NCBI GenBank assembly: GCA_039832905.1 | Contig: JBDOLX010000018.1 | Span: forward strand, 1-44,137 | DNA length: 44,137 nucleotides | Origin: Desulfurobacteriaceae bacterium | GTDB taxonomy: Bacteria; Aquificota; Aquificia; Desulfurobacteriales; Desulfurobacteriaceae | Reading direction: 5' to 3' | In this document: one piece after another, positions 1 to 5,966 of the stretch | Position numbering within the stretch: position 1 is the stretch's first letter | How the letters are laid out: each line of letters starts with the position of its first letter | Position numbers and translations under genes: made by a program | Notes under the pieces: model-generated | The model's database searches: none | Seen by the model: the letters and a program-made list of their open reading frames with translations, nothing else | Told to the model about the DNA's origin: nothing

Positions 1-322
1 TAAGGCTGTATCTAAGTACCTTGACAATGACAAGACTCCAAAGAGAAAGGTTGGAGAACTTGACACTCGTGGTAGCCACTACTGGCTTGCACGCTACTGG
101 GCTGAAGAACTTGCTAACCAGAAAGAGGATGAGGAACTTGCAAAGATCTTCGAACCTGTGGCAAAAGCTCTCATCGAAAACGAAGAGAAGATCTTAGAAG
201 AAATCAGATCTACAGAAGGATCTCCAAAGGATATCGGTGGATACTACCACCCAGATGATGAAAAGGCTACTGCTGCTATGAGACCAAGCAAGACATTTAA
301 CGAGATCATCGATAACCTATAA
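1..322 (+). CDS. icd: NADP-dependent isocitrate dehydrogenase, monomeric type (C-terminal 106 residues)
   Basis: This is the 3' end of a gene entering from the left; reading starts at base 2 and stops with TAA at 320-322. The tail carries stretches typical of the end of the large (about 740-residue) single-chain NADP isocitrate dehydrogenases: KRKVGELDTRGSHYWLARYW, then a helix rich in Glu, then DIGGYY and AAMRPSKTFNEI. This family interconverts isocitrate and 2-oxoglutarate plus CO2 in the cytoplasm. Next to ATP-citrate lyase it most likely runs in the reductive, carboxylating direction, as the monomeric enzyme of green sulfur bacteria is reported to do. The active-site part lies outside the window, so family membership rests on the C-terminus alone. 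A strong hairpin terminator follows 25 bases after the stop. Confidence 0.88.
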   Translation, partial: KAVSKYLDNDKTPKRKVGELDTRGSHYWLARYWAEELANQKEDEELAKIFEPVAKALIENEEKILEEIRSTEGSPKDIGGYYHPDDEKATAAMRPSKTFNEIIDNL

Positions 323-346
323 GCAAATTTTTGGTGTAAAATTTGG

Positions 347-378
347 GGGCTTCTACCGTATCAGGTGGAAGCCCTTTT
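347..378 (+). terminator. Rho-independent terminator between icd and aclB
   Basis: The 11-bp stem GGGCTTCTACC / GGTGGAAGCCC has one G-T wobble, a six-base loop (GTATCA) and is followed by TTTT. It lies just after the icd stop and ends 33 bases before the aclB start, leaving little room for a separate promoter. Confidence 0.85.
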
Positions 379-411
379 CCTATGTAAAGAACTTGTAAGG
401 AGGAAACTTAG

Positions 412-1713
412 ATGGCTCAAAGGGGTATTAGGGAATACGACGGAAAGAGAATATTAGCTACCCACTGGGACGAGTACTTTGCTCCAGCGTTTGAGTATGA
501 CTTTAAATCCGTTCTTGTAACTCCACAGACAGACTTAGATAAGCTTCCAGAAGAATATCCATGGCTTAAAGAGCTTCCTCTTGTAGCAAAGCCAGACATG
601 CTTTTTGGAAAAAGAGGAAAGCTCGGACTTATTCTATTTAAGAAGGAAAAGCCTTGTGATGTTGACTATGAAACTGTAAAGGAGTGGATTAAGCAAAAAA
701 GAGAAGAAGAAGTAGAAATTAAAGGAAAGAAAGGAAAACTTACCCACTTCCTCATTGAACCATGTGTTCCACACGCTCAAGAAGACGAATACTACGTAGC
801 TTTTACACTTGATAGAGAAGGTGATAAAGTATTCATGTCTGCCTTTGGTGGAATTGACGTAGAAGAGAACTGGAATAAGGTTAGAGAAGTTCTTATTCCA
901 GCTTTAGCATCTGACGAAGAAGCTGCTAAGCTTATTGAAGAAAACGTTCCAGAAGAAATTAAGGATAAAGAAAAGTATGCAGACTTCGTAAAGAGACTTT
1001 ACAAGTTCTTTAAAGACATGCACTTTGCATACCTTGAAATCAACCCACTTGTTATGGTAGGAAACAAGGTTTATCCACTTGACTTTGTAGGAAGACTTGA
1101 TGACACAGCTCAGTTCTTAGTTGGTAGAAAGTGGGGAGAAATAGAATTCCCAGCAGGATTTGGTGGAGAACTTACACCAGAAGAGAAATACATCAAAGAA
1201 ATGGACGAAAAGTCTGGAGCTTCCCTCAAGCTTACTATCCTCAATCCAAAGGGTAGAATCTGGACACTCGTTGCAGGTGGTGGAGCATCTGTAGTTTACG
1301 CAGATACTGTAGCTGACCTTGGATACGTTCATGAACTTGCTAACTACGGTGAATACTCCGGAAACCCATCAAGGGCGGAAACAAGAGAGTACGTTAAAAC
1401 AGTTCTTGACCTTATGACAAGAGAGAAAGATCCACAAGGAAGACCAAAGATCCTCATCATTGGTGGAGCTATTGCTAACTTTACAGACGTTGCCAAGACT
1501 TTTGACGGAATTATTGATGCTTTCAAAGAGTATGCAGATAAAATGAAAGAAGTTGGAGTTAAGATTTACGTGCGTCGTGGAGGACCAAACTACGAAGTAG
1601 GTCTTGCAAGAATTAAGAAAGCAGCTGAAGAACTTGGTCTTCCAATAGAGGTTTATGGACCTGAAACACACATTACAGCAATCGTTAAGAAAGCTCTTGA
1701 AGAAAATCCTTAA
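412..1713 (+). CDS. aclB: ATP-citrate lyase, ATP-grasp (small/beta) subunit AclB
   Basis: This 433-residue protein aligns along its length with the N-terminal, succinyl-CoA-synthetase-beta-like part of ATP-citrate lyase. Landmarks are VAKPDMLFGKRGKLGL (ATP-grasp, around residues 58-73), LEINPLV (metal/ATP site, around 208-214), the family stretch KSGASLKLTILNPKGRIWT, VAGGGASVVYADT, and the C-terminal citrate-binding-type segment YVRRGGPNYEVGL. With AclA it cleaves citrate to acetyl-CoA and oxaloacetate using ATP and CoA, the key step of the reductive TCA cycle, in the cytoplasm. A strong Shine-Dalgarno (AAGGAGGAAAC) precedes the ATG. aclA follows after 14 bases, so the two are co-translated from one message. 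Assignment is firm; only the naming convention (A or B for the small subunit) varies between authors, and I follow the Chlorobium usage. Confidence 0.96.
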   Translation: MAQRGIREYDGKRILATHWDEYFAPAFEYDFKSVLVTPQTDLDKLPEEYPWLKELPLVAKPDMLFGKRGKLGLILFKKEKPCDVDYETVKEWIKQKREEEVEIKGKKGKLTHFLIEPCVPHAQEDEYYVAFTLDREGDKVFMSAFGGIDVEENWNKVREVLIPALASDEEAAKLIEENVPEEIKDKEKYADFVKRLYKFFKDMHFAYLEINPLVMVGNKVYPLDFVGRLDDTAQFLVGRKWGEIEFPAGFGGELTPEEKYIKEMDEKSGASLKLTILNPKGRIWTLVAGGGASVVYADTVADLGYVHELANYGEYSGNPSRAETREYVKTVLDLMTREKDPQGRPKILIIGGAIANFTDVAKTFDGIIDAFKEYADKMKEVGVKIYVRRGGPNYEVGLARIKKAAEELGLPIEVYGPETHITAIVKKALEENP

Positions 1714-1727
1714 TTTGGAGGAAGAAT

Positions 1728-3578
1728 ATGGCAAGACCCGATTACATTCTATTTGACAGAGAAACAAAGGCAATATTCTGGAACCTTAACAGAAATGCTA
1801 TTCAAAGAATGCTCGATTACGACTACACAGTAGGAAGATCTCCATCTATCGTTGCTATTGTTGCTCCAACACAAAGCAGAAAGTTTGAAAAGTTCTTCTT
1901 TGGAACTCAGGAAATAATGATTCCTATCTATAGATCTACAGTTGAAGCTGCAGAAAAACACCCTGAAGCAGATGTTCTTGTTAACTTTGCATCCTTTAGA
2001 ACTGCTTACAACGTAACAATCGAGGCTCTTAACATTCCAACTATTAGAACTGTAGCTATTACAGCAGAAGGTATTCCAGAAAGACTTGCAAGAGATATGG
2101 CTCTTAGAGCCAAGCAGCTTGGTAAGTGGATAATCGGTCCTGCTACAGTTGGTGGTATTGCTGCTGGTGCATTTAGAATCGGAAACGCTGGTGGAACAAT
2201 TGAAAACATCGTTAAGTCTAAACTTCACAGACCTGGTTCTTGCGGTCTTGTTACAAGATCTGGAGGACTCTTTAACGAGCTTTCTAACATCATCGCAAGA
2301 AACGCTGATGGTATCGTAGAAGGTATCGCTATTGGTGGTGATAGGTTCCCAGGATCTGACTTCCTTGATCACCTTTTAAGATTCCAAAAGAACCCTCAAG
2401 TTAAGTACATGATAATGCTCGGTGAAGTTGGTGGCGAGCTTGAGTATAAAGTTGCTGAAGCTATCAAATCTGGACTTATTACAAAGCCTGTAATCGCTTG
2501 GTGTATTGGAACAATCGCTAAGCACTTTGGTGGAGAAGTTCAGTTCGGACACGCAGGTGCTAAAGCTGGTGCTGACAGAGAAACAGCAGATGCTAAGAAT
2601 AGGGCTCTCAAAGAAGCAGGAGCTATCGTTCCAGATTCCTTCAACGACTTCCCAGAAGTTATTAGAGAAGTTTACGAGGATCTTAAGAGAAAAGGTGAAA
2701 TTGGAGAAATTGAAGAACCAGAAGTTCCACCAATTCCAGAAGATTATGCAAAAGCTGTTAAGGCTGGAAAGGTTAGAAGACCTACAAACTTCATCTGTAC
2801 AATTTCCGATGACAGAGGAGAAGAGGCTACTTACTGCGGTATTCCAATCTCTGAAGTTGTTGAAAAAGATTACTCAATTGCTGATGTTATTGGTCTCCTT
2901 TGGTTCAAGAAGAAGTTCCCAGCATGGGCTTCAAAGTTCATTGATATGGTAATCAAGGTTGTTGCTGATCACGGTCCTGCTGTTTCCGGTGCCCACAACG
3001 CAAAAGTAACTGCAAGGGCAGGAAAAGATCTTATGTCCTGTCTTGCTACAGGTATTCTCACAATTGGACCAAGATTTGGTGGTGCTATTGACGGTGCTGC
3101 TAAGTACTTCAAGATGGCAAAAGAGAAGGGAATGGATCCTTACGAGTTCGTAGAATACATGAAGAACGTTGAGAAGATACCAATTCCAGGTATTGGACAC
3201 AGAATTAAGTCTACAAAGAACCCTGACAAGAGGGTTGAACTTCTCAAGAAGTTTGCAAAAGAGAACTTCCCATCAACAGAACTTCTTGACTACGCTCTTG
3301 AAGTTGAAAAGGTTACAACAGCTAAGAAAGAGAACCTCATTCTCAACGTTGACGGAACAATTGGTGTTCTCCTTGTAGACATGTTCAGAAACCTTGGCTA
3401 CACAGACGAAGAAATTGATGAACTCATCAATGCAGGAGCCTTCAACGCCTTCTTCGTACTTGGAAGATCTATCGGATTTATTGGACACATCCTTGACGAG
3501 AAAAGACTCGCCATGCCTCTTTACAGACATCCATGGGACGATATCCTCTACGACGTTAAGAGACCTGAGGAAGCTTAA
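1728..3578 (+). CDS. aclA: ATP-citrate lyase, catalytic (large/alpha) subunit AclA
   Basis: This 616-residue protein is the large subunit. The N-terminal half is succinyl-CoA-synthetase-alpha-like, with the phosphorylated histidine in GHAGAKAGADRETA (His275). The C-terminal half is citrate-synthase-like: SGAHNAKVTARAGKDL, LTIGPRFGGAIDGAA, and GIGHRIKSTKNPDKRVELL, ending in LGRSIGFIGHILDEKRL. The first half makes citryl-CoA and the second cleaves it to acetyl-CoA and oxaloacetate. Fusion of both activities with an AclB partner means this is a true ATP-citrate lyase and not the separate citryl-CoA synthetase plus lyase pair known from Hydrogenobacter and Aquifex. The ATG has an upstream GGAGGAAG. 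The gene ends just before a strong terminator, closing the acl unit. Confidence 0.96.
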   Translation: MARPDYILFDRETKAIFWNLNRNAIQRMLDYDYTVGRSPSIVAIVAPTQSRKFEKFFFGTQEIMIPIYRSTVEAAEKHPEADVLVNFASFRTAYNVTIEALNIPTIRTVAITAEGIPERLARDMALRAKQLGKWIIGPATVGGIAAGAFRIGNAGGTIENIVKSKLHRPGSCGLVTRSGGLFNELSNIIARNADGIVEGIAIGGDRFPGSDFLDHLLRFQKNPQVKYMIMLGEVGGELEYKVAEAIKSGLITKPVIAWCIGTIAKHFGGEVQFGHAGAKAGADRETADAKNRALKEAGAIVPDSFNDFPEVIREVYEDLKRKGEIGEIEEPEVPPIPEDYAKAVKAGKVRRPTNFICTISDDRGEEATYCGIPISEVVEKDYSIADVIGLLWFKKKFPAWASKFIDMVIKVVADHGPAVSGAHNAKVTARAGKDLMSCLATGILTIGPRFGGAIDGAAKYFKMAKEKGMDPYEFVEYMKNVEKIPIPGIGHRIKSTKNPDKRVELLKKFAKENFPSTELLDYALEVEKVTTAKKENLILNVDGTIGVLLVDMFRNLGYTDEEIDELINAGAFNAFFVLGRSIGFIGHILDEKRLAMPLYRHPWDDILYDVKRPEEA

Positions 3579-3583
3579 TATTA

Positions 3584-3607
3584 GGGGGACTGTTGTCCCC
3601 CCTTTTT
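3584..3607 (+). terminator. Rho-independent terminator after aclA
   Basis: GGGGGAC / GTCCCCC with a TGTT loop is followed by TTTTT, 6 bases past the aclA stop. The mirror side (TAATATT on the minus strand) is weak, but the hairpin could also serve the decayed minus-strand fragment that ends at 3615. Confidence 0.85.
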
Positions 3608-3614
3608 AAAATAT

Positions 3615-3839
3615 CTAAAAATAAAGACCAAGAAAGGTAAAAGAAGTAAGCTTGTATTTTCTATTTCCCAAGTATTTCTTATCATTGAAAAAGTTAATTT
3701 CCCGTAATCCACTAATCTCTAGAATACCTAAACTCAAGATCTGGCCATCAGTGTGATGTTTCTCACCTTTTTCAAAGTTGTATGAATTACTAAAAAACAA
3801 AGGATTTTGATAAACTCTTATAAGATGGGAAAAGTCTTA
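3615..3839 (-). pseudogene. Remnant of an outer-membrane beta-barrel protein (C-terminal tail)
   Basis: The gap 3608-3929 holds a minus-strand reading frame of 74 codons open from a stop at 3839-3837 to TAG at 3617-3615. Its translation alternates polar and hydrophobic residues and ends in a terminal Phe (TSFTFLGLYF), the pattern of a last beta-strand of an outer-membrane barrel. No convincing start or Shine-Dalgarno is visible: the only start-like codon is a TTG at 3800 in the middle of the frame. I read it as the 3' end of a gene whose front part has been lost. The parent family is not recognised. It could instead be chance; AT-rich DNA with a terminal Phe is not strong proof. Confidence 0.35.
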
Positions 3840-3901
3840 AACGTTTTAACAAAAAAGAGGGGGATGTAGTCCACTATTCTTTGCGTACCTTTTAAAACGT
3901 T
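3840..3901. repeat. 10-bp perfect inverted repeat upstream of copB
   Basis: AACGTTTTAA (3840-3849) is repeated in inverted orientation as TTAAAACGTT (3892-3901), 42 bases apart, ending 28 bases before the copB start. It could be a pair of operator half-sites for a metal-responsive regulator or the foot of a leader-RNA stem. No regulator gene is adjacent. Both arms are AT-rich, so chance is possible. Confidence 0.5.
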
Positions 3902-3929
3902 AGGCAAACAGTTTAGAGGAGAAATTCAA

Positions 3930-5966
3930 ATGAAAAATAGTATGAAGCATAACGATCATAACATAACCATAGAAATGCCTCATCATGAGAAAGATGTAAA
4001 GCATGAAGGACATAAAATGAATCATAGCAGTCACCATGCTCATATGGTAGAAGATTTTAAAAGACGTTTCCTTATTTCTTCTATACTAACAATACCTATT
4101 CTGATCTTATCGCCCTTCATTCAAAACCTATTAGGTATTAGGCTAAGTTTTCCAGGGGATGTTTATGTTCTTTTTGGTCTGTCAACTGTAATTTACCTTT
4201 ATGGTGGTTTCCCCTTTCTCGAAGGTTTTGTTAATGAAATAAGAACAAAAAAACCTGGAATGATGACACTGATTGCTACTGCAATAACAACGGCATACAT
4301 CTACAGCAGCTTGGTTGTTTTTGGACTGAAGGGAAAAAGTTTTTTCTGGGAATTAGCTACTTTGATAGATATTATGCTGCTTGGACACTGGATTGAAATG
4401 AAGTCAATTATAGGGGCTTCTCAAGCCTTAGAAAAGTTAGCCAGATTAATGCCATCAAAGGCCCATAAATTCATGCCAGATGAAACTTTAAAAGATATTC
4501 CTCTCCAAGAACTAAAACCAGGAGATATAGTAATTGTAAAGCCAGGGGAAAAGATTCCTGCAGATGGGATCGTTATTGAGGGAGAAACTTCAGTAAATGA
4601 GGCGATGTTAACTGGTGAGAGTAAACCTGTTCCGAAAAAGAAAGGCAGTATAGTTATAGGTGGTTCTATTAACGGAGAAGGCTCAATTAAGGTTGAAGTT
4701 AAAAAAATTGGTAAAGATTCTTTTCTATCTCAGGTGATCGATCTTGTAAAGAAAGCCCAGGAAAGCAAATCAAAAACCCAAGATCTGGCAAATCGTGCTG
4801 CAGTCTGGTTAACAATAGTTGCTTTAGTTGGAGGAGCTATTACTTTCTTTGTGTGGACTGTAATAGTGCATAAAGATGTAGCTTTTGCTTTAGAGCGAAC
4901 TGTTGCAGTTATGGTTATTACCTGTCCTCATGCTCTTGGCTTGGCAGTTCCATTGGTAGTAGCTGTCTCAACAGCTATCGCTGCAAAAAAGGGTTTCCTA
5001 ATACGAAATCGTATTGCTTTTGAGAAGGCAAGGAATCTTCAAGCAGTAGTTTTTGACAAAACTGGAACGTTAACAGAAGGAAAATTTGGAGTTTCCGATG
5101 TAATCGTTTTATCTGAAGACATTACCGCTGAAGAAATTCTAAACTACGCAGCTTCTATTGAGCTACATTCGGAACATCCAATAGCAAAAGCAATTGTTTC
5201 TGCATCTAAAAAGACTATGGAAGTAAAGGAGTTCAGAGCCATTCCAGGAAAAGGAGCTGAAGGGAAAGTCAATGGAAAGAAAGTAATAGTTGTTAGTCCA
5301 GGCTTTTTAAAAGAAAAAGGTATTCATCTTTATGATGAAAAAGTTTTAAAGTTAGCATCAGAAGGAAAAACGGTAGTATACGTTTTAATAGATGGAGAAC
5401 CAAAGGGTGCCATAGGTCTCGCAGATATAATTAGACATGAGTCTAAGGAAGCTATAAAAAGGCTAAAAGAAATGGGGATAAAATGCATAATGCTTACGGG
5501 AGACAACAAACAAGTTGCTAGTTGGGTTGCGAAAGAAGTTGGTCTTGATGAGTTCTTTGCTGAGGTTTTACCTAATGAAAAAGCCAAGAAGATAAAGGAG
5601 ATACAATCCCGTGGTCTTGTTGTTGCAATGGTTGGTGATGGAATCAACGACGCACCAGCACTAGTTCAGGCAGATGTGGGAATCGCTATCGGTGCAGGAA
5701 CCGATGTAGCAATTGAATCTGCAGACATAGTTCTTGTAAGAGATGATCCAAGGGACGTTGTTTCTATAGTTAAGCTTGCACGAGCTACTTACAAGAAGAT
5801 AGTTCAAAATTTGATATGGTCTACGGGCTACAACGCAGTTGCTATACCCCTTGCTGCAGGTATTCTTTATAATTCTGGTTTCCTGCTTAGCCCAGCAGTA
5901 GGTGCAGTACTGATGTCCTTGAGTACGGTTATAGTAGCAATAAATGCTAAACTTCTGAAAATTTAG
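3930..5966 (+). CDS. copB: CopB-type (P1B-3) copper-translocating P-type ATPase
   Basis: This 678-residue inner-membrane pump starts with about 35 residues rich in His and Met (HDHNITIEMPHH, HEGHKMNHSSHHAH), the metal-binding extension usual in CopB, and has no CxxC heavy-metal domain. The transmembrane metal motif is CPH (Cys332-Pro-His334), not CPC, and the last helices carry YNAVAIPLAAG and GAVLMSLSTVIVA, all hallmarks of the P1B-3 group that exports copper or silver. The catalytic set is complete: TGES, DKTGTLTEG (phosphorylated Asp376), HSEHP and MVGDGINDAPAL. The ATG at 3930 is preceded by AGAGGAGAAA at good spacing. The gene stands alone between the acl unit and gltX, with no CopA, CopZ or CsoR nearby, and follows a gene remnant and an inverted repeat, so it may be a mobile resistance gene. 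Confidence 0.93.
   Translation: MKNSMKHNDHNITIEMPHHEKDVKHEGHKMNHSSHHAHMVEDFKRRFLISSILTIPILILSPFIQNLLGIRLSFPGDVYVLFGLSTVIYLYGGFPFLEGFVNEIRTKKPGMMTLIATAITTAYIYSSLVVFGLKGKSFFWELATLIDIMLLGHWIEMKSIIGASQALEKLARLMPSKAHKFMPDETLKDIPLQELKPGDIVIVKPGEKIPADGIVIEGETSVNEAMLTGESKPVPKKKGSIVIGGSINGEGSIKVEVKKIGKDSFLSQVIDLVKKAQESKSKTQDLANRAAVWLTIVALVGGAITFFVWTVIVHKDVAFALERTVAVMVITCPHALGLAVPLVVAVSTAIAAKKGFLIRNRIAFEKARNLQAVVFDKTGTLTEGKFGVSDVIVLSEDITAEEILNYAASIELHSEHPIAKAIVSASKKTMEVKEFRAIPGKGAEGKVNGKKVIVVSPGFLKEKGIHLYDEKVLKLASEGKTVVYVLIDGEPKGAIGLADIIRHESKEAIKRLKEMGIKCIMLTGDNKQVASWVAKEVGLDEFFAEVLPNEKAKKIKEIQSRGLVVAMVGDGINDAPALVQADVGIAIGAGTDVAIESADIVLVRDDPRDVVSIVKLARATYKKIVQNLIWSTGYNAVAIPLAAGILYNSGFLLSPAVGAVLMSLSTVIVAINAKLLKI

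Follow-up and report, generated by a model that had tools for sequence, protein, structure and literature searches.

The DNA analysed here (the window) is a 44,137-nt stretch, contig C18 of a Desulfurobacterium-type genome (G000; 1.66 Mb in 120 contigs). The start of the contig falls within icd, whose stop codon occupies positions 320-322, and the genes for the two subunits of ATP citrate lyase follow in the same direction, aclB beginning with the ATG at 412. The first part of the window holds these features:

2-322, forward strand: 3' end of icd, monomeric isocitrate dehydrogenase (open frame; PF03971, E 3.2e-42, residues 1-104)
324-345, forward strand: weak AT-rich hairpin, formed in the 37 °C fold and lost in the 70 °C fold
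335-342, forward strand: TGTAAAAT, read from the sequence, with a putative -10 element TAAAAT at 337-342
346-375, forward strand: GC-rich intercistronic hairpin of 12 bp with a 6-nt loop, from folding
375-378, forward strand: short T tract TTTT, followed by CCTATG
383-400, forward strand: degenerate 11-nt repeat TGTAAAG-N4-TGTAAGG lying over the ribosome-binding site, not significant
397-403, forward strand: ribosome-binding site of aclB, AAGGAGG, read from the sequence
412-1713, forward strand: aclB, ATP citrate lyase small subunit (PF16114 and PF24948)
1728-3578, forward strand: aclA, ATP citrate lyase large subunit (PF00285 and PF00549)
3584-3601, forward strand: hairpin with T tract 3' of aclA, the presumed end of the operon

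A preliminary description of this DNA had placed a strong intrinsic terminator between icd and aclB, and its hairpin is borne out: the 12-bp stem is GC-rich and more stable than chance, as an intrinsic terminator should be, with the best hairpin of the gap surpassing 200/200 dinucleotide shuffles (gapless model, -20.9 kcal/mol). The fold of 346-376 comes to -22.6 kcal/mol at 37 °C; at 70 °C, a plausible growth temperature, the fold of the whole icd/aclB gap retains the GC-rich hairpin alone, with -9.9 kcal/mol when folded by itself. Over positions 300-460 as a whole, the folding stands out less (z -2.18, 7/200 shuffles equally good). The window hairpin obtains a terminator score d of +18.4, and its TTTTCC tail scores 3.48; a simple terminator scanner that requires 5 T in 8 missed the hairpin, whose stem is trailed by 4 T only. 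From the end of the T tract (378) to the aclB ATG there are 33 nt, ribosome-binding site included, exactly the distance described before. An Rfam search of positions 1-2000, at E values up to 1, returned no match.

The preliminary description had also proposed a comparison of related genomes. We collected citrate lyase loci from 30 genomes; four lack a tandem icd, leaving 26 junctions, and two more genomes (G020, G022) have strong aclB matches but no locus and so fall outside the comparison. A hairpin is present at 26/26 tandem icd/aclB junctions, as expected of an internal terminator, and its position is kept among relatives while the sequences of stem and loop turn over widely. In 21/26 junctions, the window's among them, no more than 1% of shuffles equal the hairpin; the exceptions are G001, G002, G009, G014 and G051, and in G001 and G002, which belong to the same genus as the window genome, 6 and 4 of 200 shuffles do so. 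From hairpin end to aclB there are 23-46 nt in 17/18 Desulfurobacteriaceae and 364 nt in the remaining one, G018. At that locus (L007, L033), inserted small open frames separate the icd hairpin from aclB; TGTWAAA repeats (see below) and the hairpin flank the insertion on one side, and an AAACAACTTAGGAGG stretch preceding aclB flanks it on the other. The T tract varies more than the hairpin: 12/18 Desulfurobacteriaceae pass the d score, and d falls below zero in 6/18 that keep the hairpin, G006 and G013 failing clearly. Of the earlier phrase "strong terminator", the stable hairpin thus stands, but the window's T tract is short and six family members score below zero.

Other junctions carry hairpins of the same layout. 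Between acn and icd, a hairpin lies 3-9 nt past the acn stop in 11/11 short gaps, a count that excludes G003, G022, G024 and G025 (no upstream gene), G008 and G013 (514-nt gap), and G000 and G011 (no icd start). Between rpoB and rpoC, it lies 5-10 nt past the rpoB stop, again with its sequence turned over, in 15/15 Desulfurobacteriaceae with an identified rpoC, out of 16 searched, the cut rpoC locus of G023 being left out. The rpoB/rpoC hairpin also occurs in one f2 genome and three Hydrogenothermaceae (loci of the whole comparison, L156:14757-14812, L159-L174 and L176-L178); in four f4 genomes, probably Aquificaceae to judge from the absence of a true aclB, rpoB and rpoC follow one another without any gap. 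Individually these control hairpins are modest: no more than 5% of dinucleotide shuffles, which in these gaps preserve G and C runs, match the hairpin in 6/15 rpoB/rpoC and 6/11 acn/icd gaps, and the window genome's own rpoB/rpoC hairpin is equalled by 29/196. The argument is carried by their repeated position. Because rpoB and rpoC should share one transcript as an obligate operon, their hairpins indicate that such structures are read through in Desulfurobacteriaceae; and hairpins at both acn/icd and rpoB/rpoC argue that the icd/aclB hairpin is not specific to citrate lyase.

In these genomes, many co-directional gene pairs have a hairpin between them. In samples of three genomes, hairpins of -9.4 kcal/mol or better occupy 24/95, 6/31 and 29/81 co-directional gaps of 40-400 nt, as against 0, 0 and 8 hairpins after mononucleotide shuffling of the same gaps. 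Two individual cases came to our attention. In G002 (L098:7274-7332) and G009 (L158:7240-7291), an ammonium transporter gene and a porin-type gene are separated by a strong hairpin that lacks a T tract. A second hairpin, nearly the same in these two genomes (GAGCGGTTCTT...GAACCGCTC, then CTTTTTATTTAA), is found at L098:12750-12898 and L158:3142-3300, between similar gene pairs that we take to be smpB and rimP.

In the window genome, an assembly gap takes in acn and most of icd, and the acn promoter is within that gap. The missing part of icd, about 630 codons, did not turn up anywhere else in the G000 assembly. Another contig, C91, ends beside a repeat near rtcB, and acn was not seen there; the repeat is of the same kind as one located between rtcB and acn in G002. 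For the window genome we infer that the operon exists, and that transcription enters it at an acn promoter with repeats like that of relatives. For Thermovibrio ammonificans, a single operon of aclAB, idh and acn has been described from gene context (PMC5441870). The excerpted proteome of D. thermolithotrophum HR11 at low H2 lists AclAB as 2.2-3.3x, Idh as 3.0x and Acn as 2.5x higher, the rises of Idh and Acn reaching Padj < 0.05 only (PMC12724263). Co-transcription of the genes on either side of the hairpin is supported indirectly by gene order, by the lack of a recognisable promoter and by these jointly changing proteins; a shared rise of Acn, Idh and AclAB can also arise from separate promoters under one regulator.

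With a probability of about one half, we read the element at 346-378 as a leaky terminator and 3'-end protector inside an acn-icd-aclB-aclA operon, with aclBA expressed mainly by read-through. Polymerase entering upstream of acn would stop in part at this terminator-like intercistronic hairpin, yielding acn-icd mRNA whose 3' end is protected; the remaining polymerase would read through into aclBA. The hairpin would in this way both lower aclBA relative to icd and stabilise the upstream message. Partial termination that may set the Icd:AclBA ratio is the reading that best suits the sequence. The three routes to aclBA expression named in the preliminary description, namely read-through, an overlapping promoter and RNA processing, are the right ones to weigh against each other.

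No promoter had been evident after the hairpin in that description, and we likewise find no TAnnnT between the window hairpin and the ribosome-binding site. A sigma-70 consensus scan of positions 1-5000 gave 8 sites against a shuffle mean of 9.1, none of them at the junction. We also built a promoter model from 68 divergent-gene upstream regions and dropped it as evidence, the median best score being 6.78 on the model's own training regions versus 5.15 after shuffling, with much overlap. Among 17 short-gap Desulfurobacteriaceae, TATAAT occurs past the hairpin in 0/17 and a weaker TAnnnT in 5/17; among Hydrogenothermaceae, TATAAT is found 3' of the hairpin in 5/8. Some Hydrogenothermaceae have a palindrome AATMAAAC-N3-GTTTKATT upstream of aclB, as at G043:C1:1099149, G051:C8:332468 and G057:C36:10203, and related sequences precede icd in L042 and L048; the palindrome is present in 9/13 genomes searched (reversed control, 0).

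On the upstream side of the hairpin the picture is different in some relatives. In two genera (g3 and g6, 9 genomes), repeats of 11-nt period, TGTWAAA-N4-TGTWAAA, fill the space from the icd stop to the hairpin (8/8 genomes within a 140-nt scan; the ninth, G018, was read directly). In the window, g3 and g6 alike, the G run of the stem is preceded at a distance of 1-2 nt by TGTAAAAT or TGTTAAAAT; in the window this box, TGTAAAAT, abuts the stem at 335-342 and contains TAAAAT, which the preliminary description had left unnamed. Together with the Hydrogenothermaceae TATAAT sites, these repeats favour a possible, if doubtful, alternative in which the hairpin ends icd transcription and aclBA is served by a promoter at the hairpin's edge, with TAAAAT as its -10 element. 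Judged from spacing, the first nucleotide of this RNA would lie at about 349, within the G run. Where the full repeats are present, in g3 and g6, the corresponding start would come late in that run and sacrifice the 5' arm; with only a remnant of the stem left, these transcripts would escape, and termination would affect only RNA arriving from upstream. Repeat-bearing genomes also have the better icd terminators (9 vs 9, Mann-Whitney p 0.013, uncorrected for kinship), and in these nine relatives aclBA may be a unit of its own.

The window itself fits this alternative less well. Were transcription to begin at 349, 9 bp of the stem would remain, and with them the terminator; neither a -35 element nor a second repeat accompanying TGTAAAAT was recognised; and no good repeat match was found at the junction of G001 and G002 (same genus) or of G005, G006, G008, G013 and G019. 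The degenerate repeat at 383-400 was rejected as evidence, the best junction score (5.3) being not significant and only the seventh in the whole window, and the WalR/PhoP-type consensus of two TGTWAH half-sites separated by N5 has no match anywhere in the window, the junction included. The window junction is thus without a significant repeat, and appears to retain only the last repeat unit, TGTAAAAT. For a promoter overlapping the hairpin or the icd end, as first suggested, the sequence support is good in nine relatives but weak in the window.

An unlikely alternative makes the hairpin an mRNA processing or stability element, which would block 3'-5' exonucleases after cleavage and cause icd and aclBA messages to decay differently. 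The retention of the hairpin despite a poor T tract in G006 and G013 speaks for it, as do precedents in other operons (in the accessible part of PMC5927463) and the same layout at rpoB/rpoC, where the median terminator score is 0.4, near zero. The icd/aclB hairpins, by contrast, outscore rpoB/rpoC as terminators in 10/13 genomes (Wilcoxon p 0.02, a generous value because the genomes are kin) and have the better tails in 11/13 (p 0.03), and the twelve family members that pass the terminator score likewise argue for termination; against acn/icd their score is higher in 7/10, which is not significant (p 0.13). A ligand- or protein-controlled attenuator dedicated to citrate lyase, argued from position in the preliminary description and from nothing further, is very improbable and finds no support, given the same design at acn/icd and rpoB/rpoC, stem and loop sequences that are not conserved, no Rfam hit and, by eye, no conserved alternative pairing. 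In some g6 genomes the upstream repeat could pair with the segment preceding the ribosome-binding site; we discarded this pairing after seeing by eye that G007 and G014 disrupt it.

The junction repeats belong to a wider set. A strict form of the repeat pattern has 106 matches in 15 Desulfurobacteriaceae versus 4 for the reversed control, and 17 versus 2 in two further genomes of the same order; six genomes from other families together hold 1 strict match versus 4 in the control. Overlapping matches within one repeat array are counted separately here, and not every match was fetched (fetched sites, L232-L271 and L302-L341). A slightly looser pattern was intergenic in 7/7 matches in genome samples; at least three fetched sites (L238, L243, L266) lie inside called genes of more than 200 residues. 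Assigned by similarity in 17 genomes, and leaving out 16 repeat places without an assigned target, the targets are acn (13), frdA of the 564-residue type (12), the divergent neighbour of frdA (11), sucC (9), rtcB, divergent from acn (7), mdh (6), icd (3), genes that we take to encode an NfnA-like subunit (6), an NfnB-like subunit (5) and YbaB (5), and rarer ones. From coordinates, at sites that were not fetched, a repeat also lies close upstream of sucC in G008, G010, G012 and G014. Two genomes of the genus Desulfurobacterium have repeats at sucC and frdA and not at mdh (frdA of G002 by the looser score only).

Paired TGTWAH half-sites with an N5 spacer are thus present at reductive-TCA genes of the relatives. 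The repeats look like sites that a WalR/PhoP-type response regulator would read, and they probably mark a reductive-TCA and redox regulon in Desulfurobacteriaceae. The HR11 proteome fits these targets in part. As far as the available text of that study goes, fumarate reductase, SucAB and 2-oxoglutarate oxidoreductase are also higher at low H2 and Mdh is not, two hydrogenases change strongly, and por and the fumarases are unchanged (PMC12724263); the agreement, on few genes, is suggestive only. We found no description of TGTWAAA repeats in the largely open-access, abstract-level literature on Desulfurobacterium, Thermovibrio and reductive-TCA regulation.

Response regulators with a PF00486 domain number one to five per Desulfurobacteriaceae genome searched, with two in the window genome, and two families are candidate regulators of the repeats. 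RR223 is found in eight relatives at 73-85% identity, and repeats precede its start in G023; the G012 entry under RR223 is the RR217 gene, listed through cross-similarity. In G006, G007, G010 and G012, a strict repeat lies close to the start of the RR217 gene itself, and the DNA fetched around the RR217 counterparts of G003, G004 and G005 contains no repeat; the window genome lacks RR217, neither of its PF00486 matches resembling it. The genome G022 from the same order, 95% complete, yielded 11 matches to the strict repeat and none to PF00486, which counts against both candidates unless the assembly misses the gene.

A joint reading, which we put forward tentatively, would connect these observations with the junction. 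An orphan WalR/PhoP-like regulator would act through repeats at acn (and so on acn-icd-aclBA), sucC, frdA, in some genomes mdh or icd, and redox genes; in g3 and g6, the junction repeats, placed directly against the icd terminator, would give aclBA a second entry whose start falls within the stem, and the resulting transcript, having lost the 5' arm, would escape; and the window junction would be a decayed or intermediate form of this arrangement.

The 2025 proteome study reports H2-dependent changes and, in its accessible text, names no regulator of reductive-TCA genes (PMC12724263). The icd/aclB junction is a concrete and cheap test case for internal termination in a carbon-fixation operon, the repeats provide specific sites together with a handful of candidate response regulators, and the rpoB/rpoC hairpin is a natural control for telling a terminating from a protecting role of such hairpins.

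Three known systems resemble what we describe. In the ABC importer operons of cellulolytic Clostridia, internal intrinsic terminators set the stoichiometry of the products; they too are GC stem-loops in gaps separating genes of the same direction, and their U tract is often short or imperfect (PMC9045158). There, however, the hairpins follow binding-protein genes and termination efficiencies of 20.7-96.1% were measured (PMC9045158), whereas those of Desulfurobacteriaceae follow metabolic genes and rpoB. The stabilising stem-loops of puf, papBA and an E. coli survey are likewise intercistronic and kept among relatives, to go by the excerpted report; that survey excluded gaps with terminator motifs (PMC5927463), whereas most icd/aclB hairpins carry a U tract. 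Finally, the WalR/YycF operators, TGT(A/T)A(A/T/C)-N5-TGT(A/T)A(A/T/C) in the available text of PMC5405149, equal the repeats at the relatives' acl, acn, sucC and frdA genes in half-site, spacer and 11-nt period. Unlike those operators, the repeats have reductive-TCA and redox genes as their main targets, and some of their arrays comprise at least three boxes.
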